Shown here in pieces: positions 23,025 to 46,096 of a stretch of 64,000 bases of DNA. The position numbers and the translations under genes were made by a program. The notes beneath the pieces were generated by a model, which ran no database searches, had not been told where the DNA came from, and was given only the letters and a program-made list of their open reading frames with translations. Each line of letters starts with the position of its first letter. The first letter of the stretch is position 1. This stretch comes from an uncultured Anaerolineae bacterium. Its GTDB lineage: Bacteria; Chloroflexota; Anaerolineae; Anaerolineales; Villigracilaceae. Where the stretch lies: the NCBI GenBank assembly GCA_903854805.1, contig CAINXK010000459.1, forward strand, positions 1 through 64,000, in the 5' to 3' direction.

Positions 23025-23060
23025 TAAAAGGATGTCTGCACATACGCAGACATCCTTTTA
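23025..23060 (-). terminator. Intrinsic terminator of the HD-GYP gene
   Basis: A 15-bp perfect stem (23025-23039 with 23046-23060) with a six-base loop overlaps the stop codon of the HD-GYP gene. The downstream arm ends in TTTTA on the reverse strand. Confidence 0.75.
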
Positions 23061-25097
23061 CTTCAAATAATGGCGCAGTGGGATGGTTTTTGATTGGCTG
23101 CTGCTGTCTCTGCGCACAGGAATCGTATCCCGCAAAATCAACTGTCTGAAAACAGGCACAACCGCCGGATCAAAGAAAATCCCTGATTGTGTCTGAATGT
23201 AATGTAAAGCCTTATCTGTTGACCATGCAGAGCGATAAGGGCGATCCGACGTAAGAGCATCGAACACATCAATTATCGAAAAAAGCCGCGCCGCAAATGG
23301 AATATGTTCACCTTTCAAGCCATATGGATAGCCACTGCCATCCCATTTTTCATGATGATAAAGCGGGATATCCATCGCGTTTTTAAGATGTTCAACTTGT
23401 GAAAGAAGTTGATAGGCATAAAGCGGATGCTGTTTCATGATCTCCCATTCATCAGGTAGCAACGCACCAGGTTTGAGCAAGATCGCATCAGGAATGCCCA
23501 TTTTACCAATATCATGCAGCAGTGCTCCTTGATGAACATGGGCCAGACCGGTTTCAGAAAAGCCCATTCTGCGAGCCAGCTCAATTGTCAATTTAGCTAC
23601 CCGGCGAGTGTGCCCCTCGGTTTCCCGATCACGCAGTTCAAGCGCTCGCGACAATCCTTCGATCGTCGCATCGTAAGCCGAATTCAACTCCAGGTTTGAA
23701 TCTTGTAAAAATTTTACCAAAAGGGTGTTGTCAATAGCAATAGCGATCTGGTTCGCCAGGGTTTCAAGCATGGTAAGCCAGTCATCGTCTGGCACAAAGC
23801 GCCAGCGCTGGAAGATTTCCAGAACTCCCCTCACCTCAGAACGAGCGATTAAAGGAATTCCAAGGTACATCATGAAACCCTCATCCTGGAATTTTACCGC
23901 GCGCGAAAAAGTTTTAGGATCATTTTGCAGATTGTCAACATAAACAACCCGCTTTTCAAGCGCAACCTGACCAGCAAAACTTTCTCCAATCTTTAAGTGC
24001 GAGTACTTGAATGTATCGTGTCGAAAACCAAACCCGTCCACAAAATTCAACATCTGGGTTTTAGGATCCAAAACCAGTAGAGCAAGAGCATCAACATGGA
24101 TATGCTTGGCGGCTTCTTTCAAAATCACAGCGGCCATGGATTTTAAATCCAGGTTTGATAGGATAGCCTGATCAATAGAACGTAAGGTTTGCATCTGGCT
24201 CAGTTGGCGGCGCGAGTCCTCATACAGACGGGCATTTTGAATCGCCGAGCTAGCCAACAAATTATAGGCGTGGAAAAAATCAATGATTTCTGGCGTAAAG
24301 TAACTTGGCGATTCAACAATCAGGCCCAATACACCGATTACCTGGTCATGAGATATAAGCGGGAAGAATGCCCTGGTTTGTTGCGCAATGATGATGGATG
24401 CGGGAAGCTCAACCACGAGATCGGTTTTATTTTCAATAATGAAATTTAGTTCATCTGCTGTCGGCTTAATAAGGACAACTTGGTCCGTAGGTAGCTTTTT
24501 TGCTGATGAATAGGCCAACTCATCAATACTATGGCCAAACTTCACCAACCCTAACCAGGCTTCCTGGACCCCAAATTGTTCAACGCAAGATCGCGTAATA
24601 TTTATTCCAAGTGCGTTACTATTTAATTCTCTGGAAAGCTGTTGGGCACTTTCCTGCAGTGTATCCATGAGTTGCTGATGCCGGCGAATAGAATCGGCGT
24701 TTCGTTTTTGATCGGTTATGTCACGAATAACAACCACCAGGTTCTCATCTTTGATTTGAATACATTTCGCTGAGTATGAATAGGTTTGGCTTTCGCTAAA
24801 CAGGTCATATTCCATCGTCGAAATTTGGCCGGAACTCATGGTCATGTTAATTGCAGCTAAAAATTGAGTGGTGGCATTGGGCGGTAAAACATCCATAATA
24901 TGCCGCCCCAAACATTTTTCCGGATTGGTATAAAAGGTTGCAGTCGCGCTCGCAAGATAATTGATGATTATTCCATCTTCATTGAGATAAAAAAGTAGAT
25001 CCGGGAAAATCTGAAAGATAGTTTTGAGAATAGAATCAGAATCGCCGGCTGGACGACCCGGGAGACCTGTTTCCAGACCTGGATGCAGTGATTTCAT
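23058..25097 (-). CDS. PAS-GAF-GAF-HD-GYP signalling protein
   Basis: This is a 679-residue cytoplasmic sensor. It has a PAS domain (about residues 15-130, IFPDLLFYLNEDGIIINYLA), two GAF domains (about 150-300 and 310-465), and a C-terminal HD-GYP domain. The HD pair is in HDIGKMGIPD near residue 527, and the diagnostic HHEKWDGSGYP lies near 580. HD-GYP proteins usually hydrolyse cyclic di-GMP. The frame extends upstream to 25337, but that part overlaps a better gene at 25144-25461 and lacks a domain, so the ATG at 25097 is preferred. It is the last gene of a co-directional cluster with a STAND regulator, a small peptide and DUF5317. There is no transmembrane segment, so the signal is probably intracellular. 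Confidence 0.85.
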   Translation of the reverse strand: MKSLHPGLETGLPGRPAGDSDSILKTIFQIFPDLLFYLNEDGIIINYLASATATFYTNPEKCLGRHIMDVLPPNATTQFLAAINMTMSSGQISTMEYDLFSESQTYSYSAKCIQIKDENLVVVIRDITDQKRNADSIRRHQQLMDTLQESAQQLSRELNSNALGINITRSCVEQFGVQEAWLGLVKFGHSIDELAYSSAKKLPTDQVVLIKPTADELNFIIENKTDLVVELPASIIIAQQTRAFFPLISHDQVIGVLGLIVESPSYFTPEIIDFFHAYNLLASSAIQNARLYEDSRRQLSQMQTLRSIDQAILSNLDLKSMAAVILKEAAKHIHVDALALLVLDPKTQMLNFVDGFGFRHDTFKYSHLKIGESFAGQVALEKRVVYVDNLQNDPKTFSRAVKFQDEGFMMYLGIPLIARSEVRGVLEIFQRWRFVPDDDWLTMLETLANQIAIAIDNTLLVKFLQDSNLELNSAYDATIEGLSRALELRDRETEGHTRRVAKLTIELARRMGFSETGLAHVHQGALLHDIGKMGIPDAILLKPGALLPDEWEIMKQHPLYAYQLLSQVEHLKNAMDIPLYHHEKWDGSGYPYGLKGEHIPFAARLFSIIDVFDALTSDRPYRSAWSTDKALHYIQTQSGIFFDPAVVPVFRQLILRDTIPVRRDSSSQSKTIPLRHYLK

Positions 25098-25143
25098 ATC
25101 TTGATTTACCCAATCGAGTGCCACAGAGTCAGCCCTCGGATTA

Positions 25144-25461
25144 CTAAATGCGCAATTGATAATTTTCTGACAGGGCAGGTTTTGCAACCAGTTTTGAGCC
25201 CGTAAGGTGTTTGGATACGTGTTGTGCAAATTCAGGCAAGCTTGAACCTTGCGCCCCAAGAACAAGATTATATTCATCCGAAGATAGCGAAAATTGTTCG
25301 CCCGCATATCCCATCGAAATGGCCCGAGCAGGATCACTCAGCAACACATTACAGAATTGCCGGCTAACAACTGCTGCCGCAAGCAGACGATTAATATCGC
25401 TATGCTCGCAACGACCACTACGGATACTTACATGCTGTTCAAATAGCTGGTTGGTTAACAT
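25144..25461 (-). CDS. Small NHLP-leader-like protein
   Basis: This 105-residue protein has a helical core that reads INRLLAAAVVSRQFCNVLL, then SDPARAISMGY and LSSDEYNLVLG. This is the pattern of NHLP/Os1348-type leader proteins (short helix, FxxxLLxDP, then a Leu-rich acidic helix), which in other systems guide modification of natural-product precursors. The tail after residue 75 is polar and ends PALSENYQLRI, without an obvious Cys/Ser/Thr-rich core. It lies between DUF5317 (8-base gap) and the HD-GYP gene. The family match is by eye only. It may be a regulator or adaptor rather than a precursor. Confidence 0.65.
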   Translation of the reverse strand: MLTNQLFEQHVSIRSGRCEHSDINRLLAAAVVSRQFCNVLLSDPARAISMGYAGEQFSLSSDEYNLVLGAQGSSLPEFAQHVSKHLTGSKLVAKPALSENYQLRI

Positions 25462-25469
25462 AATGCGTT

Positions 25470-26054
25470 CTACCTTTCTTGAGAGAGCTTCTGAGAATGT
25501 GAAGGTGATGCGAGCAAGAGAAATGCCCCGATATCGATCAAAATATCCCCAAAGCTAAAAGCAAACCGGTAAGGAAACCATTCAGGTGATACGAATCGAT
25601 CGGAAAGCCAAGAAAAAACAATAGCATCGGGTGAGAGCAAGATATCTTTGCTGCCCAGGCTGAACCGGCTACCAACTTTAAGATTCGAGAGGATTTGCTC
25701 TGGAATGATGTGTGCAGCAGTTACCGTACTGAGAGGCATAAACCCATCGTTCGCGCAAATGACTACCAAGTTCAAAAATAGCCCGATAGTCAGAATAGGT
25801 ATACCCGGTAAATGCCTGTTGAGCATACAAAATAAAATCAGCCCTAGCTGGGAAATAATCAGGTAAGCTGGAACCAGCAGGGCGGGCATTTGGCTACGCG
25901 TCACCGGCAGGTAGAAAGCGAGCAGCTGCGGCACAAAAAAAATGACCACCAACCAGGCGCGCTCGAATTCAGGATATTGCCAGACCGACCGGCCCAAATA
26001 GGTTTTAATCCAACCTGATAGCAAACCCAAAATAACAGCAGGCAGCAGTACCAT
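25470..26054 (-). CDS. DUF5317-family membrane protein
   Basis: This 194-residue protein has about five transmembrane helices. The pattern LLSGW near residue 15, LLNRHLPGIPILTIGLFLNL in the middle and the conserved ANDGFMPLS motif identify DUF5317. A C-terminal helix ends in a charged tail. Its ATG overlaps the stop of the upstream small peptide gene (TAATG), so the two are translationally coupled. Function in this family is not established. The context here (tiny hydrophobic peptide, NHLP-like protein, HD-GYP sensor, STAND regulator) suggests a sensing or export role, which is inference. Confidence 0.85.
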   Translation of the reverse strand: MVLLPAVILGLLSGWIKTYLGRSVWQYPEFERAWLVVIFFVPQLLAFYLPVTRSQMPALLVPAYLIISQLGLILFCMLNRHLPGIPILTIGLFLNLVVICANDGFMPLSTVTAAHIIPEQILSNLKVGSRFSLGSKDILLSPDAIVFSWLSDRFVSPEWFPYRFAFSFGDILIDIGAFLLLASPSHSQKLSQER

Positions 26055-26197
26055 TAATGGCCGATACCACCACCATCAACCGGGGCGCCTGCGCCAAGCA
26101 CAAGCATCAAAACCGTCAGCACCATTAAAACCAATTGAATATGCTGTTTCTGAATTTTGGAAAGCGAGAAACTGAAGCGATAGGCAATGTTTTTCAT
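26054..26197 (-). CDS. 47-residue hydrophobic peptide with Gly-rich tail
   Basis: This short gene has a basic/polar N-terminus (MKNIAYRFSFSLSKIQKQH), one hydrophobic helix (about residues 21-36) and the tail GAGAPVDGGGIGH. An AAGGTGA ribosome-binding site precedes the ATG, and the stop overlaps the DUF5317 start, so it is very likely translated. It could be a signal-peptide-like precursor releasing a Gly-rich peptide, or a small membrane subunit of DUF5317. I do not know a characterised family. The ribosome-binding site lies in one arm of an inverted repeat (26200-26208 and 26259-26267). Confidence 0.75.
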   Translation of the reverse strand: MKNIAYRFSFSLSKIQKQHIQLVLMVLTVLMLVLGAGAPVDGGGIGH

Positions 26198-26199
26198 TG

Positions 26200-26267
26200 G
26201 TCACCTTTTTGAAATAATTGGTAGGATATAGTCCATAGAATACACCATGCCAGGATACAAAGGTGAC
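26200..26267 (-). promoter_or_regulatory. Inverted repeat that could mask the ribosome-binding site of the small peptide gene
   Basis: Nine-base arms at 26259-26267 and 26200-26208 are perfectly complementary across 50 bases. In the mRNA the second arm contains the AAGGUGA ribosome-binding site of the 47-residue peptide gene, so pairing would hide it. The long loop makes a simple hairpin only moderately stable. Confidence 0.35.
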
Positions 26268-26279
26268 TACAAAGTCATA

Positions 26280-29200
26280 TTAAATTAAATTTTGGTAGAG
26301 TTTTTCTGTTTCCCGGGAAGGGTTTATCCCCAATTCAATCCTTAATGTTTTTGAACAGGCTTTATATACACGTGCCACGGCAGAGGTATCCCCTAATTTA
26401 GCGTGGGCGCACATCATAAGCCGATAAGCCTCTTCCAGGATATTATTGCTCTCAAGGGCAGTCTGACAAACCTTGATCACCCGGTCTATCTGACCTACAT
26501 CCAAATATAACTCGGCAAGTAGAAGTAAATTTTTATGGTGTTGACTTTCAAACTGAGTACGTTCCCAATCCGCCCATTCTGTATCGATATCTGCAAGATG
26601 GGGCCCGGTAACAATATCCACAGCGGCTTGCAACAGCAAAGTACTTTTAGCGGCATTTTTTTCTAAACGAGCTTTTTCAACGAACTCCTTGTAGATCTCA
26701 AGACCATATTCGTAGTCAACAAAATGATTGAATCTGTAACGCTCACCTTCAAACAAGATTGTATTTTGCCCTACCGCATGTCGAAGGCGATAAAGGCTGG
26801 TTTTAAAACGCATCTTTAAACGTTCTGGAGAAAGATCCGGCCAAAAAATGGCAGCGATTTCATCCTTGGTCAGTGGTTTGGATCCCAGGAAAAAGAAGAA
26901 TAAATCCCTGGTTTCTCTGGTTTGCCAATCCGAGAGCATAATTTGTTTTCCATTCAGAAAGACCTGCGCCGAGCCAAAAGCCTGAATACTAATATGAGGA
27001 GGGGATATAAAAGCAGATTTAGATATCCGTCTCAGGTTCTTCAGAATTAGTGGAATCTTTTTTGCAAACTCATCTGCCTGGGTGAATAATGGCTGTAGGA
27101 TTGAAAAAGACGTTTGTGGCTGGTTTGATTTTTCGAACCAGCGCTGCACACCCATCGCGGCGACGTGCAGCGGGGTAGGTTCTTTCAGATTCTTGTAAGT
27201 AGACAATAATTCTGCCAGGTGCAACGAACCCGGATCGAGTTCTCCAGTTGCCAGCCGGGCAGCCACCAGCCATAACTTGCTGATACAAACCTCCAGAATC
27301 CGTCCATCCTGTTCATATAAACTGATCGCGTTTGCTAGCTCGTCCACTGCTGCATGAAACTTGTTACTAAAGAGCAGCAAACAACCGTATTCCATTCGGA
27401 AAAATGCTTCATCTGTCGATGATGAATTCTGCTGAATATACGCGAATATATCCTTTAGAAGCGCATCCGCTACTGCGATTCGGTCGCCAAGTCTTGCAAT
27501 CCGCGCCTTGGCGACCGATGCATAAAAAACCAGAAAAGAATCTCCCAACTGGGATGCAATAACCAGGGCCTGGTCAAAACACTCTTCTGCCCGCTCAAGC
27601 TCGTGTAGATCAGTGAGCAGATCACCCAGGCTACTCAGAGCCAGCGCTTGCGCACGCACATAGCCACTTCGTTGAGCATAATTGATGGCATCTTCAAACA
27701 CTTGAAAAGCTTTTTCATATTCTCCGCGGTAATGGTGCAAAACAGCCAGATTATTCATCAGGGTAGCTTGCCAGCCAATGTTACCGGTTGCTTCCCAAGC
27801 TTTTAGGGCACTACGATAGTATTTGATGGCGGCTTCGCTATTACCTAATGTGTAGTTTACGGCCCCCAACTCCATTTCCAAGATTGGTATGTGGATTTCA
27901 TCATTGAGTGATGCGAGCAGTTGCAGCGAATTCTCAAACAGAGGCAGCGCATCAAAAGTTTTTCCCATGCGAAACAAAACCAATCCTTTGACGCGCAAGG
28001 CTGCCGCGTACATTATTTGAAGGTCAGCCTTTGAACTACCCAAGGTAAGCGTGATGACTTCATCTGCATCGTTGAGCGCGAGAGACAAGTCGCCCAATTC
28101 GCGGTAAGCAGCTGCGCGGCGGACTAATGTCCCCGCTAGATTTTGGAAATCCTGGCGGGCGCGGAATTCAGTTTCTGCCTGGCTTAAAAGTGATATACCC
28201 AACTGCACATCGCCCTGGGTGTAAGCAACAGCTCCTTGAAGTGAAAGCAACCTGGGATTTTGTTGTAAAACAGAAATCGGTAAGCGCTCCAACCAATTCC
28301 CTAATGTCACAATACGACCATTCAGTATAAAGTCAGTTCCTGTTTCTTCAATCAGCGCGATCAAGGCTGACTGTTCGCCAATATTTTCGTAGATATGGTG
28401 AGCCTTTTCCAAATCCTTACGCTCGAAATAATACGAAGCCAGCTTTAGCATCACATCCCGGATGATTTGCGGCTTTTCTTCCTGCAATTTTGTCTGAAGA
28501 TACTCCTGAAATAAATGATGATAACGGAAATACATCCCGTCAATACCAACAGGAATCGCAAAAAGATTATTTTTCTGAACAGTATCGAAAAGACTGCTCC
28601 AGTCCAGGTGCCGGTCGGGAATCAACGGATCCAAAACAGCGATACATTGACTGATGTTGACATCATCGAACAAAGATGTCAACAAAAGGAATTCACGCAT
28701 ATTTTGGTTTTGCCTTTCCAACACCTCTCGCGTGAAATAATCGTATAGCTCGATACCGGTTTTGGCAGCTGGAGATTTTTGCGTGATACTTCCTTCTACG
28801 AAAGAAAGGCCGGTAAGCGCTATGGAAGTAATCCAACCATCTGTTTTTCTCGCGATTTCTTCGGCTTCATCCACGGAGAGAAATTGTGCAGAATTCTGAG
28901 CGAATAGAGTCCGGATCTCTTCTGACGAAAATGTAAGATCCTCCAGGCTCATACCACCGACCTGATCCCTGGCAACCAATAAATGCAGATCTGATAAATA
29001 GGGCAGTAGCCGTGACGCCAGGATCAAGTGGCAGTGTTCCCCGACCAGTTGAGTAAACCGATTGATAAATAAACGGACTTCGGGTACGGAATCGATAAAC
29101 TGATAATCATCGAGAACGATAGCAAAATGTTCGTGAATGGTTCCGTAAATTTCATTTGTCAGCGCAACTACCAATCTTTCATTTTCTTTCTCGATGGAAA

Positions 29201-29525
29201 TCACATTCATCAACATGCTGATCGATTCGGCGCCAAAAGCCGGGAATCTTTCCTGGACGCAAGCTATAAAGTAGGAAAGAAAACGTTGAGGCTCTTGATC
29301 CAAAATATCCAACGAAAGCCAGCAAATGGGAATTTCACTCTTATCAACCATGTCGATTAATAGGGATGTCTTGCCATATCCCGCCGGCGCGGATATTAAT
29401 ATCAATTTTTTGTTTAGTAGGGAATGAATATTTTCAATTAAACGATGACGCGTGACAATTTCCGCCCTTCGTCGGGGTGCTATAATTTTTGTCTTACTTA
29501 TTGGAAAAACCGTTTCAATCCGCAT
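26280..29525 (-). CDS. STAND ATPase / TPR / BTAD-type transcriptional regulator
   Basis: This is a 1081-residue MalT/AfsR-like regulator. Residues about 40-340 form a STAND NTPase with Walker A SAPAGYGKTS (Lys52) and a later ILDDYQF Walker B region. Residues about 370-800 are TPR repeats. The C-terminus carries a winged-helix DNA-binding domain (about 850-940, with WPDLSPERLKMRFKTSLYRL) and a bacterial transcriptional activation domain (about 950-1075). In SARP-type proteins the DNA-binding and BTAD parts are N-terminal; here they are at the end, with no LuxR helix-turn-helix. STAND proteins act as ligand-triggered ATP switches. It is the first gene of a co-directional series ending with the HD-GYP gene and is 82 bases from the small peptide gene, so it may control or be co-transcribed with it. 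Confidence 0.88.
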   Translation of the reverse strand: MRIETVFPISKTKIIAPRRRAEIVTRHRLIENIHSLLNKKLILISAPAGYGKTSLLIDMVDKSEIPICWLSLDILDQEPQRFLSYFIACVQERFPAFGAESISMLMNVISIEKENERLVVALTNEIYGTIHEHFAIVLDDYQFIDSVPEVRLFINRFTQLVGEHCHLILASRLLPYLSDLHLLVARDQVGGMSLEDLTFSSEEIRTLFAQNSAQFLSVDEAEEIARKTDGWITSIALTGLSFVEGSITQKSPAAKTGIELYDYFTREVLERQNQNMREFLLLTSLFDDVNISQCIAVLDPLIPDRHLDWSSLFDTVQKNNLFAIPVGIDGMYFRYHHLFQEYLQTKLQEEKPQIIRDVMLKLASYYFERKDLEKAHHIYENIGEQSALIALIEETGTDFILNGRIVTLGNWLERLPISVLQQNPRLLSLQGAVAYTQGDVQLGISLLSQAETEFRARQDFQNLAGTLVRRAAAYRELGDLSLALNDADEVITLTLGSSKADLQIMYAAALRVKGLVLFRMGKTFDALPLFENSLQLLASLNDEIHIPILEMELGAVNYTLGNSEAAIKYYRSALKAWEATGNIGWQATLMNNLAVLHHYRGEYEKAFQVFEDAINYAQRSGYVRAQALALSSLGDLLTDLHELERAEECFDQALVIASQLGDSFLVFYASVAKARIARLGDRIAVADALLKDIFAYIQQNSSSTDEAFFRMEYGCLLLFSNKFHAAVDELANAISLYEQDGRILEVCISKLWLVAARLATGELDPGSLHLAELLSTYKNLKEPTPLHVAAMGVQRWFEKSNQPQTSFSILQPLFTQADEFAKKIPLILKNLRRISKSAFISPPHISIQAFGSAQVFLNGKQIMLSDWQTRETRDLFFFFLGSKPLTKDEIAAIFWPDLSPERLKMRFKTSLYRLRHAVGQNTILFEGERYRFNHFVDYEYGLEIYKEFVEKARLEKNAAKSTLLLQAAVDIVTGPHLADIDTEWADWERTQFESQHHKNLLLLAELYLDVGQIDRVIKVCQTALESNNILEEAYRLMMCAHAKLGDTSAVARVYKACSKTLRIELGINPSRETEKLYQNLI

Positions 29526-30134: not shown

Positions 30135-30608
30135 TCAACCAGTGCGCATTCCCTGAAGAGCCTGGTTCTGCGCGTGAATATTTTCAGCACGTGTCTGATC
30201 TGGGATTTCACAGCCTGCCGCTTCTGCCAGAGCGCCTTCCACCCAACCCACGACTGGGGTTTCCGCCCCTACTTGATCATGCAAAGTACGGACTGCTTCC
30301 AGGCGATCGGTCATACGAAGGCCGAAGTTTTGCGCTGGAAAGTTAATTGAATATAAATCGTCTGGTTCGATCATAAGTGGTTTTTTATTGAGCGGCAAGT
30401 TATCGACAGGTAATTCCACAACCAGCCCGGCATCAGCGGCTTTGCGGTATGGGTCCGAGATTGTCTGGACGATATCAAGGTTGAAGGTATGCAAAATCGC
30501 CAGGTTAGCTTCGTACAGTACGCGGTAATCCAGATAATATTTTGAGAGAGGCGCATTGATATAGTGTGCTGCCCGCATCATGAAAGGGGCGATCAACGAG
30601 TTGAGCAT
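30135..30608 (-). pseudogene. Uroporphyrinogen-decarboxylase-like (URO-D fold) fragment
   Basis: The 157-codon frame reads like the N-terminal half of URO-D-fold methyltransferases and decarboxylases: PFMMRAAHYINAPLSKYYLD, then FNLDIVQTISDPYRKAADAG and the conserved VGWVEGALAEAA. Full-length members are roughly 340-400 residues. Here the first 20 or so residues are atypical or missing, and the C-terminal half after the glutamate-containing loop is gone; downstream sequence (to 29981) is open in another frame but not recognisable. It is therefore judged a truncated remnant, with no catalytic product expected. Confidence 0.75.
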
Positions 30609-31515: not shown

Positions 31516-32113
31516 TCAAGATTCGCCAGCGAACGTGCCCACCACGAGATAGGCAAGGATATCGCCATAACCGCTGGATGTCAAAGTGGTATAGCTGAAA
31601 TAGACGAATTGCTGCCACGGAACCACACCATCTGGAAAGCTTCCATCACGAAACGAGCCCGGTATCAGCGCATCGATAATGCCATACAGCGGCACAAAGA
31701 GCACGCCGAAGAAAATAGATAGAAATTGCCGCATAGAGTACATCGCGAGTGATGGTATTGACAGAGAGTAAAAAACGTCCCAAAACCCAGAACAGCATGC
31801 CCAGGTAAGGAACGAGAGCGATATTTGTTAGAAAAACCGCCCAGGAGGTGGTTGGGTTCAATGCGTAAGTTATGCTTGCAGCGAAGTAGACAAAGTTTGT
31901 ACATCCCAGAAAAAGCATGTGACGGATCGAGTCGCGCCCAACAATCACACCTGCCAGTATCATGGAAACACACAAGATTTCGAAGAGGACCAGGACTGTT
32001 ATGCCATAGGCGGTGATCGGATAGCCAAATTCTACTAAGACAATCAAACCCAGGAGATAAATGGTTTTACCTTTTACTACGTTTTGGATCTTGCTATTAT
32101 TTTTTAAAGACAT
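31516..32113 (-). pseudogene. Frameshifted and truncated two-pore-loop potassium channel gene
   Basis: The reading frame starting at 32113 encodes several membrane helices (LLGLIVLVEFGYPITAYG, then GMLFWVLGRFLLSVNTITRD). Around 31690-31735 the similarity moves to another frame, which continues LIPGSF, the pore helix FVYFSYTTLTSSGYGDI with a K+-filter-like sequence, and then stops at AGES before the final transmembrane helix. The gene is therefore broken twice: a frameshift near a T-rich stretch and a missing last helix. An intact relative would be an ion-transport-2-type channel. Confidence 0.75.
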
Positions 32114-44158: not shown

Positions 44159-44728
44159 TTATGTATCCAAAAAAACATGGATGGATTGATCATATTGCAT
44201 GGTGCGTCCGAAACCCTTGACAGCTAATTTTTTGCGCATCTCGGCAGAAATGCCTCCAGCACGAAGTTCATCCAACACGCTCGCGTAATCGGCAGGGTCA
44301 CATACCAGCGTAACCCGCTCGTGATTCTTTGCGGCTGCACGGATAAGTGTCACTCCGCCAATATCAATGTTCTCAATCACCTCTGCATAGGTCACGCCAG
44401 GCTTTGCAATGGTCTCTTCAAAGGGGTATAGATTAACAGCCACAATATCGATATAGTCCCAACCAAGTTCGAGCAGCTGTTGGTGGTCGGCTGGGGTGGG
44501 ACGTGCCAACAGCCCGCCATGGATGGCCGGATGCAAGGTCTTAACGCGTCCACCCAGGATTTCTGGTGACCCGGTGTAATCTGCCACTTCAATGACAGCA
44601 AGACCATTATCACGCAACATTTTGGCGGTACCACCAGATGCAAGCAGGGTCCAACCAAGATTAGCGAGACCGGTGGCAAAAGCAAGCAGGCCGGTTTTGT
44701 TATGGACAGATAGAATGGCTTTTGGCAT
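44159..44728 (-). CDS. purH: IMP cyclohydrolase domain protein (split PurH, N-terminal half)
   Basis: This 189-residue protein corresponds only to the MGS-like cyclohydrolase domain of PurH: LLASGGTAKMLRDNGL, VKTLHPAIHGGLLAR and NLYPFEETIAKPGV are typical. It closes the last ring of IMP from FAICAR. A fused bifunctional PurH would continue for about 330 more residues; here the frame stops at 44159, and the transformylase is encoded separately upstream at 44921-46096. An AAAGGAA ribosome-binding site and a candidate promoter (44777-44805) precede it. Confidence 0.9.
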   Translation of the reverse strand: MPKAILSVHNKTGLLAFATGLANLGWTLLASGGTAKMLRDNGLAVIEVADYTGSPEILGGRVKTLHPAIHGGLLARPTPADHQQLLELGWDYIDIVAVNLYPFEETIAKPGVTYAEVIENIDIGGVTLIRAAAKNHERVTLVCDPADYASVLDELRAGGISAEMRKKLAVKGFGRTMQYDQSIHVFLDT

Positions 44729-44776
44729 CGGATCGTTCCTTTGAATAGTTTTCGCAAATTCTTACTTGTAACAGTA

Positions 44777-44805
44777 TGTATAGGCTTTTTTGCAAAGCAT
44801 ATCAA
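44777..44805 (-). promoter_or_regulatory. Candidate promoter for the IMP cyclohydrolase gene
   Basis: On the reverse strand TTGATA (44800-44805), a 17-base spacer and TATACA (44777-44782) precede the gene by about 50 bases. The -35 matches five and the -10 four of six consensus positions. Confidence 0.5.
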
Positions 44806-44870
44806 CTGCGGGGTAAACCAGCAGCAAGCGCCGCTAAGTGAACAAAACTTTCCTGCTTGACGATTGGCAA

Positions 44871-44910
44871 TTGACAGGGAAATTTATTGTCTAAAATAAA
44901 TTCCCCTGTC
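44871..44910 (-). terminator. Hairpin after the AICAR transformylase gene
   Basis: Arms 44871-44887 and 44894-44910 pair over 17 positions with one A-C mismatch around a six-base loop. It starts 11 bases past the transformylase stop. The following T-tract is weak, so it may attenuate rather than fully terminate transcription into the cyclohydrolase gene. Confidence 0.5.
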
Positions 44911-44920
44911 AAAATACAAG

Positions 44921-46096
44921 CTAGTGGTGGAACAACCTGACCGCACTTAAGACCATCGCCATTCCATATTCGTTACAGGCGGCAATGACATCTTCATCCC
45001 GGTTGGAACCGCCTGGTTGAAGCACATAACAGACACCGGTCTGGGCAGCACGATCGATGCTGTCACGAAAGGGAAAGAAAGCGTCGGACCCGAGCGTAAC
45101 ACCCGTCAGGGTATCCAGCCAGGCACGGCGCTCAGCAGATAATAACTGCTCAGGAAAATGTGTAAAGGCGTTTTTCCAGTTTGCTTTTTCAGCCTCCGTA
45201 ACGCCGGGTTGGAGAAACTGGTCAATGGCATTATCGCGATCGGGTCGTTTAATCCCAGGCACAAACGGTAACTCGAGTACGCGTGGATGTTGACGCAAGT
45301 ACCACATATCGGCCTTTTCACCAGCTAGACGAGCACAGTGCACGCGCGACTGCTGGCCGGCTCCCACACCAATGGTCTGACCATCTTTTACATAACAAAC
45401 AGAATTAGACTGAGTATATTTGAGTGTAATCCAGGCAACAGTCATATCGCGAATAGTTTCGGAAGTGAGCTGCCTGTTCAACGTGACAATATTCGCAAAA
45501 TCAGCGGGGCGGACGGAACGATCATGACGGTGCTGTTCGAAGGTGACACCATAGACTTCCCTGGTTTCCACCGGTTCTGGTTGGTATGCCGCATTCATCT
45601 GAATAACTGCATATTTACCAGCTTTCTTGAGCTTCAGCAAATCAAGAGCAGCGGGCTCATACCCAGGTGCGATAACGCCATCGGAAACTTCACGCGCAAT
45701 AACCCTGGCCGTAGAGACATCGACCGTCTCAGAAAGAGCGATAAAATCGCCGAAGGATGACATACGGTCAACGCCGCGCGCACGCGCGTAAGCCTGAGCA
45801 AGCGGTGAAAGCTCCAGATCATCAACGAAATAGATTTTCTTCAAAATGTCATCCAGAGGAACGGCCACCGCCGCGCCAGACGGACTGACATGCTTAAAGG
45901 AAGCTGCTGCCGGCAGGCCAGTCGCCTGCGTAAGCTCGGAGACAAGCTGCCATGCATTCAACGCATCCAACAGGTTGATGTAGCCCGGGGAACCCGCCAG
46001 TACAGTAAAGGGTAAATCTGTGCCATTCTTAATAAAAACGCGGGCGGGGGCCTGTTGAGGGTTGATTCCATAACGCAGAGTCAGAGATGATGGCAT
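44921..46096 (-). CDS. purH: AICAR formyltransferase domain protein (split PurH, C-terminal half)
   Basis: This 391-residue protein matches the AICAR transformylase half of PurH: LRYGINPQQAPARVF at the start, SFKHVSPSGAAVAVPL with the catalytic Lys-His pair, TQSNSVCYVKDGQTIGVGAG, and DAFFPFRD, ending with VLQPGGSNRDEDVI. It transfers a formyl group from 10-formyl-THF to AICAR. Here it is an independent gene placed before the cyclohydrolase gene, the reverse of the usual domain order. A TATAAT-like -10 lies on the reverse strand at 46167-46172, but its -35 is poor. Confidence 0.92.
   Translation of the reverse strand: MPSSLTLRYGINPQQAPARVFIKNGTDLPFTVLAGSPGYINLLDALNAWQLVSELTQATGLPAAASFKHVSPSGAAVAVPLDDILKKIYFVDDLELSPLAQAYARARGVDRMSSFGDFIALSETVDVSTARVIAREVSDGVIAPGYEPAALDLLKLKKAGKYAVIQMNAAYQPEPVETREVYGVTFEQHRHDRSVRPADFANIVTLNRQLTSETIRDMTVAWITLKYTQSNSVCYVKDGQTIGVGAGQQSRVHCARLAGEKADMWYLRQHPRVLELPFVPGIKRPDRDNAIDQFLQPGVTEAEKANWKNAFTHFPEQLLSAERRAWLDTLTGVTLGSDAFFPFRDSIDRAAQTGVCYVLQPGGSNRDEDVIAACNEYGMAMVLSAVRLFHH

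Follow-up and report, generated by a model that had tools for sequence, protein, structure and literature searches.

We examined a window of 64,000 nucleotides from an uncultured Anaerolineae bacterium (contig CAINXK010000459.1 of assembly GCA_903854805.1), in which the gene of a STAND-type regulator is followed on the same strand by genes for a 47-residue hydrophobic peptide, a DUF5317 membrane protein, a 105-residue protein resembling Os1348, and an HD-GYP protein. These five genes are part of an undescribed cassette that recurs in many Chloroflexota genomes. The features of the locus are:

26280..29525, minus strand: STAND-SARP regulator, 1081 residues, with a MalT-like NTPase, a TPR region and a C-terminal SARP/BTAD domain (profile matches and structure relatives)
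26250..26270, minus strand: imperfect direct repeat, GTAGTCAC-CTTT-GTATCCTGG, period 12; predicted regulator operator
26237..26242, minus strand: -10-like TATTCT, 8 nucleotides past the second repeat octamer
26202..26207, minus strand: Shine-Dalgarno-like AAGGTG for the peptide gene
26054..26197, minus strand: micropeptide, 47 residues, with a basic N-end, a transmembrane helix, an LGAGAP motif and a Gly-rich tail
25470..26054, minus strand: DUF5317 membrane protein, 194 residues, with five long helices in the model and invariant D152 and D170
25144..25461, minus strand: Os1348-like (NHLP clan) protein, 105 residues
23058..25097, minus strand: PAS-GAF-GAF-HD-GYP protein, 679 residues from a revised ATG, with HDIGK, HHE and GYP motifs; optional member
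23026..23060, minus strand: terminator-like hairpin with a T-run at the HD-GYP stop (by eye)

The initial annotation had described five co-directional genes in this order, a TAATG stop/start overlap between the peptide and DUF5317 genes, a gap of 8 bases between DUF5317 and the 105-residue gene, and a terminator at the HD-GYP stop. All of this was confirmed: the genes run on the minus strand from regulator to HD-GYP, the overlap and the gap are present, and a hairpin with a T-run accompanies the stop at 23058. We shifted the HD-GYP start from GTG 25337 to ATG 25097, which is more likely the true one because the alignment with the homologue at relative L006 begins at that Met; 46 nucleotides then separate this gene from that of the 105-residue protein. 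With HDIGK, HHE and GYP all present, and a match to PmGH (4mcw, 3.2e-53), the protein has the HD and GYP motifs of HD-GYP phosphodiesterases, its predicted activity.

The regulator joins parts of two known kinds. At its C-terminus lie a BTAD match (PF03704, E 4.2e-17) and a region that aligns with AfsR over residues 883-1079 in the profile alignment and 882-1080 against the solved SARP domain (8k60/8jke), and we assign it a predicted SARP domain of winged helix plus BTAD. Its N-terminal NTPase region aligns with MalT (8bob, residues 12-424, E 2e-27), TPR matches are also present, and NF003420 matched at 2.8e-61, under that model's equivalog cut-off; by these matches the protein has the MalT-like NTPase and TPR sensor of STAND NTPases. 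It resembles the activator MalT in the NTPase region, and differs in that its output is a SARP domain rather than a LuxR-type one. At three relatives (L166, L180 and L182) two consecutive STAND regulators lie around the cassette genes.

The neighbourhood, whose recurrence in relatives the initial annotation had proposed to check, was conserved in two surveys. Scanning named genome contigs with a profile of the peptide alignment, we obtained 8 loci, every one from Chloroflexi/Anaerolineae, and all five genes were present in 8/8 with the order and strand of the window; regulator identity across them was 30-65%, two regulator copies being cut by contig ends. A peptide-independent sample started from DUF5317, which is present in 101/396 genomes of the class, and comprised 114 annotated DUF5317 places (L196 from the peptide-found genome G003, the rest from the class survey; L190 is counted twice, its DUF5317 lying in two pieces, and L197 was left out because it duplicates L008). 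The counts include related loci, which are not independent observations. A STAND regulator lay upstream on the same strand at 77/114 places. Of these 77, 70 have an Os1348-like gene (62 after DUF5317 and 8 between peptide and DUF5317) and 7 have none; an HD-GYP gene lay at most 5 kb downstream in 16 of the 57 regulator loci for which 3 kb or more of sequence was available. Given these counts, the cassette core consists of the regulator, the peptide, DUF5317 and the Os1348-like protein. HD-GYP, previously listed as a full member, keeps that place in the window and in the 8/8 peptide-found relatives and is optional in the wider survey. Loci in three genomes with no DUF5317 match (G138, G231 and G288; their completeness is uncertain, and so is this absence) retain the regulator, peptide, Os1348-like and HD-GYP genes.

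We take the 47-residue peptide to be a real gene because it has 30 homologues at E up to 1, because pS (0.75) exceeds pN (0.22) against the L006 copy, and because tandem copies differ by 4 (L142) or 9 (L169) nucleotides with the protein unchanged. Nine columns of the peptide alignment are invariant, including K14, H19, Q21, G35 and the GAP at residues 37-39, and window-type peptides also conserve the N-terminal half, SKIQKQHIQ. The peptide has no Pfam or NCBIfam match and belongs to an undescribed micropeptide family with a basic N-end, a transmembrane helix, a GAP motif of the form [VA][LVI][AG][AGS]GAP, and a short tail, mostly of 5-11 residues. Ca. Desulfolinea nitratireducens (L008) carries five peptide genes in tandem. 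When open reading frames (ORFs) after the regulator were judged by length and hydrophobicity only, a short hydrophobic one lay directly behind it in nearly all regulator loci, even where the hidden Markov model (HMM) of the peptide had failed; L136 is without one. The idea that such a peptide generally accompanies STAND-BTAD genes was set aside on one weak case: L226, a non-cassette STAND gene, has no small hydrophobic ORF downstream, and the same procedure missed the cassette peptide of L223, probably because that locus lies on the opposite strand.

The pairing of peptide and DUF5317 was assessed with a simple rule, an ORF of 28-70 residues with a transmembrane segment immediately before GAP, the opposite strand serving as control. 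Such an ORF lay upstream of DUF5317 in 77/85 regulator loci (69/77 minus the eight peptide-found loci), in 7/17 loci of unclear type, several of them truncated, and in 1/19 loci with HD-GYP first; on the opposite strand it occurred at 0/121 places. The cassette intervals hold 100/102 of these ORFs from all loci. Such regular pairing of the micropeptide with DUF5317 is what one would expect of a peptide signal. GAP was present in 72/80 picked peptides, a partly circular count as the picker required a small-residue motif; the picker also missed some peptides, among them those of L180 and L182, which have no GAP. In genomes without a DUF5317 match GAP was absent in 3/3 loci, of which L177 and L193 are close relatives, as against 5/77 of the other picked peptides.

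The window DUF5317 protein matches PF17248 at E 8.3e-30. The control search of the class survey also gave DUF5317 matches in Thermotoga maritima and Thermus. D152 and D170 are invariant in 114/114 aligned DUF5317 sequences, and N79, N95, N102, G104, M106 and P107 are nearly or fully so. The structure model (pLDDT 88.5, pTM 0.82) has five long helices, and D170 stands where the last one begins. Judging by loop charges and by a C-terminal fusion to major facilitator superfamily (MFS) transporters in other loci, we take the N-terminus to be probably outside and the C-terminus inside. This would put both Asp on the outer face, the side on which an N-in peptide would expose its GAP. The protein has no sequence relatives in the PDB, and Foldseek returned none for the model. 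The spacing of the invariant Asp pair (18 residues, with D170 opening the last helix) is reminiscent of LspA (Peptidase_A8), and HHalign places D152/D170 on the VxDF and FNxAD region of LspA with a score of 26.4 and a probability of only 10%. The reversed profile scored 13.2, 40 window-shuffles at most 18.7, and rotated profiles that keep the local motif 23-25, as expected. Unlike LspA, the window protein lacks the GNxxDR motif, and each of 14 genomes tested also encodes a true LspA. PF01252 gave no match, the window protein yielding up to E 1 only DUF5317 and one weak unrelated match. We did not retain LspA as a relative by fold, as it was absent from the Foldseek and VIA rows and the sequence likeness is above that of reversed and shuffled profiles but weak. 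We hypothesize that DUF5317 may act as a peptidase. A Pro right after the A of GAP would be unfavourable for ordinary signal peptidase I, and would suit a dedicated enzyme. Neither DUF5317 nor PF17248 is named in any paper within the literature searched, and the cassette offers a candidate function for this domain.

The gap between the regulator stop and the peptide start contains direct repeats, of period 11 in 23/81 gaps and of period 12 in 36/81 (either in 53/81). Other periods from 5 to 21 occurred in 0-7 gaps, and 60 shuffles averaged about 3 with a maximum of 11. In control regions, repeats of period 11/12 were found in 8/62 upstream of the regulator and in 6/72 downstream of the Os1348-like gene. 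Where the octamer GAAGCC[TA][GA] is present, TANNNT follows exactly 8 nucleotides on in 14/16 gaps, a spacing counted for this repeat type alone. Passages in two papers describe SARP operators as heptameric direct repeats, classically 11 bp apart and usually overlapping the -35 region (PMC5930380, PMC10972967). The cassette family likewise carries predicted operators of direct repeats about one helical turn apart, of which the window copy is an imperfect example. Since the gap repeats resemble SARP operators and the regulator C-terminus aligns with the AfsR SARP domain, the peptide gene is likely regulated by its neighbour. The comparison with SARP and SARP-LAL regulators (AfsR, PimR) thus extends to the SARP domain and the operator type; the differences are that here the domain sits at the C-terminus, after a MalT-like NTPase and TPRs, that period 12 outnumbers 11, and that a micropeptide operon is the predicted target. 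Several relatives show, by eye, a terminator-like hairpin between regulator and peptide, and so the two are probably separate transcripts, the peptide having its own repeat-bearing promoter. A riboswitch upstream of the peptide was rejected, an Rfam search giving no match up to E 1. The first repeat of the window could pair with the peptide Shine-Dalgarno sequence (fold -19.5 kcal/mol, without shuffle control); by eye the pairing is similar in L003 and not clear in the other relatives folded.

A search of 14 genomes for TTTGAAGCCTGTTTTGAAGCCTG with up to 3 mismatches found 23 sites, against 0 for the reversed pattern. Fifteen of the 23 lie inside the cassette (13/14 genomes), and eight matches fall at seven places elsewhere. 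In G385 each of three tandem peptides is preceded by its own repeat site, and the tandem peptides of L008 likewise each have their own repeat. TANNNT stands 8 nucleotides on at 6/7 outside places; the seventh, in G006, lacks the spacing and is probably a chance match. Downstream of the six with this spacing lie, respectively, a 2348-residue RHS/SpvB protein, a 3382-residue RHS/SpvB/Laminin_G_3 protein and a Golvesin/Big_1 protein, all three with N-ends that look signal-like by eye; a histidine kinase and, after it, an HD-GYP-bearing response regulator; a separate response regulator; and an ORF without Pfam match before a helicase-like gene group. At L295 (G335:C6), where a SARP-type repeat precedes such an ORF, the helicase-like group by eye resembles a restriction or defence island. 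In the window, a second operator copy was represented by partial matches at chance level only. The operator repeat makes the regulon searchable across many genomes.

DUF5317 also occurs with micropeptides of other kinds. In a second cassette type HD-GYP directly precedes DUF5317, and a different micropeptide (MKW, a transmembrane segment and xKW, or a K/R-G/P-aromatic end) stands just before HD-GYP. With adjacency counted from domain coordinates, this was so for 27/34 such HD-GYP genes; of the seven without the micropeptide, four had less than 200 nucleotides of upstream sequence. It was so for 1/20 HD-GYP genes behind DUF5317, for 0/9 remaining HD-GYP genes, and for 0/63 on the opposite strand. 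Three of those nine (L250, L251 and L259) precede DUF5317 at a greater domain distance, and their inclusion gives 27/37. By eye, a GCGAAGCGRAGGGGA-like element recurs between a conserved protein of about 210-275 residues (containing RAPKQIVRDIESLL) and the KW micropeptide at L091, L094, L126, L141, L151, L187 and L235.

A third type, seen in other Chloroflexota in a phylum-wide sample with 101/350 DUF5317-positive genomes, has DUF5317 fused to an MFS_3/MFS_1 transporter, as found in 6 of 10 long DUF5317 proteins scanned. Five of the six fusion loci (L227, L228, L229, L231 and L233) have a regulator-like STAND match upstream, with a micropeptide and HD-GYP between, and the micropeptide tails are of the kind ASVKGW or ATLKPY. 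A leaderless mini-ORF stands about 45-70 nucleotides ahead of the micropeptide and ends in a copy of the micropeptide tail, as in MARSSVKGW beside ...AGGASVKGW and MAPLNTLKPY beside ...GAATLKPY (the starts are our reading); at least 3/5 residues are identical in 6/7 fusion-type loci. We then took 20 further loci, chosen on the length of their DUF5317 frames alone; the longest start was used, and the searched region was shifted for L301, L312 and L313. A micropeptide and a STAND match were present in 17/20. A mini-ORF ending in K[GP][WF] occurred in 9 of these 17, that is in 9/10 with [KR]G[FW] tails and 0/7 with others, a count without its own opposite-strand control; identity of at least 3/5 with the tail held in only 4/17, against 0/17 on the opposite strand by the same identity rule. 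Tail copies were found in 2/81 window-type loci, both of them tandem peptide copies, and in 0/22 KW-type loci. That the mini-ORFs copy the micropeptide tail suggests that the peptide works through its final few residues. The mini-ORFs whose ends copy or resemble the tail are mostly of 9-10 residues (L227-L229, L231, L233, L234, L296-L300, L304, L305, L311 and L314).

The 105-residue protein had been called leader-like. In the window it scored 22.3 against a cut-off of 40 bits for NF038399 (Os1348/NHLP) and 15.3 against 48 bits for PF14407. All 36 members of its family alignment match both models at E up to 1 (best Os1348-model E 5e-07), and because the whole family matches the same model, a distant kinship with Os1348 is likely; the earlier suggestion of an NHLP/Os1348 match stands as to the match itself, which stays under the curated cut-off. 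The structure model has five helices (pLDDT 70), Foldseek returned nothing for it at E 0.001 or below, the family has just three weak sequence matches in the PDB (E at least 0.24), and viral contigs contain no relative. With Os1348 of Pseudomonas sp. Os17 the protein shares the NHLP clan model and a helical model; the match below cut-off, the missing fold match and the lack of modification genes among the scanned window neighbours set it apart. The initial annotation had seen no adjacent modifying enzyme, and a Pfam scan agreed, covering the five proteins of the cassette and four neighbours in the window (relatives were not scanned). With this and the Os1348 score below cut-off, a cluster for a ribosomally synthesized and post-translationally modified peptide was rejected. 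A candidate DUF5317-Os1348 fusion at L266 (4680-5474), whose C-terminal extension looks Os1348-like by eye, was not accepted, at an HMM E of 0.06 and with no NCBIfam match.

The initial annotation had read the locus as a peptide cassette under a STAND-BTAD regulator, a view now strengthened by the neighbourhood, the peptide-DUF5317 pairing and the SARP-type repeat, and narrowed by the optional HD-GYP and the Os1348 match under cut-off. From the cassette, the peptide family, its pairing with DUF5317, the repeat pattern and the further matching sites, all observed by computation, we infer a course of regulator binding, regulation, peptide cleavage, release and sensing, and we give about even chances to a self-inducing peptide-signal cassette. 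Upstream of the peptide gene, the direct repeats would stand in for a -35 box; bound to them, the STAND-SARP regulator would turn on expression of the peptide, of DUF5317, of the Os1348-like protein and, in the window, of HD-GYP. The peptide would insert in the membrane N-in/C-out, and DUF5317, its invariant Asp pair facing outward, would cut or handle it at the GAP motif and free the short tail. This tail, directly or after uptake, would activate the regulator via its TPR region and close the loop, whose outputs may include giant RHS proteins and cyclic di-GMP enzymes. We favour a signal because tandem copies each carry a repeat, mini-ORFs copy the tail, DUF5317 is fused to MFS transporters, and the loop is of SARP type. 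The peptides of L180 and L182 lack GAP although DUF5317 is present. The Gly-rich tail is similar between species, which speaks against a strain-specific pheromone and leaves room for a peptide that stays in the membrane.

Such a peptide would remain unreleased as a small membrane subunit of DUF5317. The pair would serve as an envelope sensor or as an accessory to a transporter, and the regulator would control its expression. The close peptide-DUF5317 pairing, the conserved N-terminal half of the window type and the DUF5317-MFS fusion are in keeping with it. We nevertheless consider it unlikely, since the peptide types have little in common beyond a transmembrane helix and a short tail, tandem copies come with their own repeats, and the mini-ORFs repeat the tail alone. 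A secreted antimicrobial, with DUF5317 serving for processing, export or immunity and SARP control as in antibiotic clusters, seems to us distinctly improbable: GAP is conserved over the class sample rather than diversifying, outside sites include kinase, response-regulator and HD-GYP genes, and no modification gene was found among the four scanned window neighbours, even though tandem peptide copies would fit and passages in the literature tie SARP regulators to secondary metabolism (PMC10972967) and Os1348 of Pseudomonas to antibiotics (PMC7726476). A reading in which it is the Os1348-like protein that gives rise to a modified peptide, with the 47-residue peptide as accessory, is very improbable: the family-wide matches to NF038399 and PF14407 and the variable C-terminal part of the 105-residue family would suit it, but the window match is under both cut-offs, the four scanned neighbours include no modifying enzyme, and seven of the 77 regulator-DUF5317 places show no such gene.

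If the signal reading extends to the other cassette types, DUF5317 would found a peptide-maturation family. In Chloroflexota it is nearly always paired with a membrane-anchored micropeptide, and some lineages have it joined to an MFS transporter; the last residues of the micropeptide (GAP, KW and KGF/RPF tails) would be the message, with STAND-SARP regulators or other partners as its readers. The cytosolic tail-copy mini-ORFs would be built-in antagonists or leaderless signals. We offer this wider view tentatively, as a possibility short of an even chance. If it does signal, the cassette would be the phylum's first known peptide signalling system, with control over giant RHS proteins and cyclic di-GMP enzymes.

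Gram-positive pheromone systems (Agr, RRNPP and enterococcal) combine a small membrane-inserted precursor, a membrane protein and a TPR regulator, and the cassette similarly has a small membrane-inserted peptide beside a membrane protein and a TPR regulator. It differs in that no AgrB, AgrC or RRNPP-type receptor was found by Pfam among the five cassette proteins and in that its peptide is in neither Pfam nor NCBIfam; the RRNPP receptor consists of an N-terminal XRE-type HTH and TPRs, and the regulator here of NTPase, TPR and SARP parts. In the literature searched, by title only, no work on peptide signalling or a small-peptide system in Chloroflexi/Chloroflexota surfaced. As far as our searches show, the parts are close to known kinds (SARP regulator, peptide signal), and what is new is how they are combined, together with the micropeptide family and the link to DUF5317. 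A conserved peptide with a partner membrane protein, a regulator and a predicted operator provides a directly testable way into cell-cell signalling in a phylum that is abundant and little studied.

Elsewhere in the window, a URO-D fragment at 30135-30608 covers profile positions 35-146 of 346, and the gene is probably truncated. Two overlapping frames at 31516-32113 resemble by eye a single pore-loop ion channel (TTLTSSGYGD) broken by a frameshift. At 44159-46096 PurH appears, judged from sequence alone, to be split into two genes in inverted order, one for its MGS-like half and one for its AICAR transformylase-like half.

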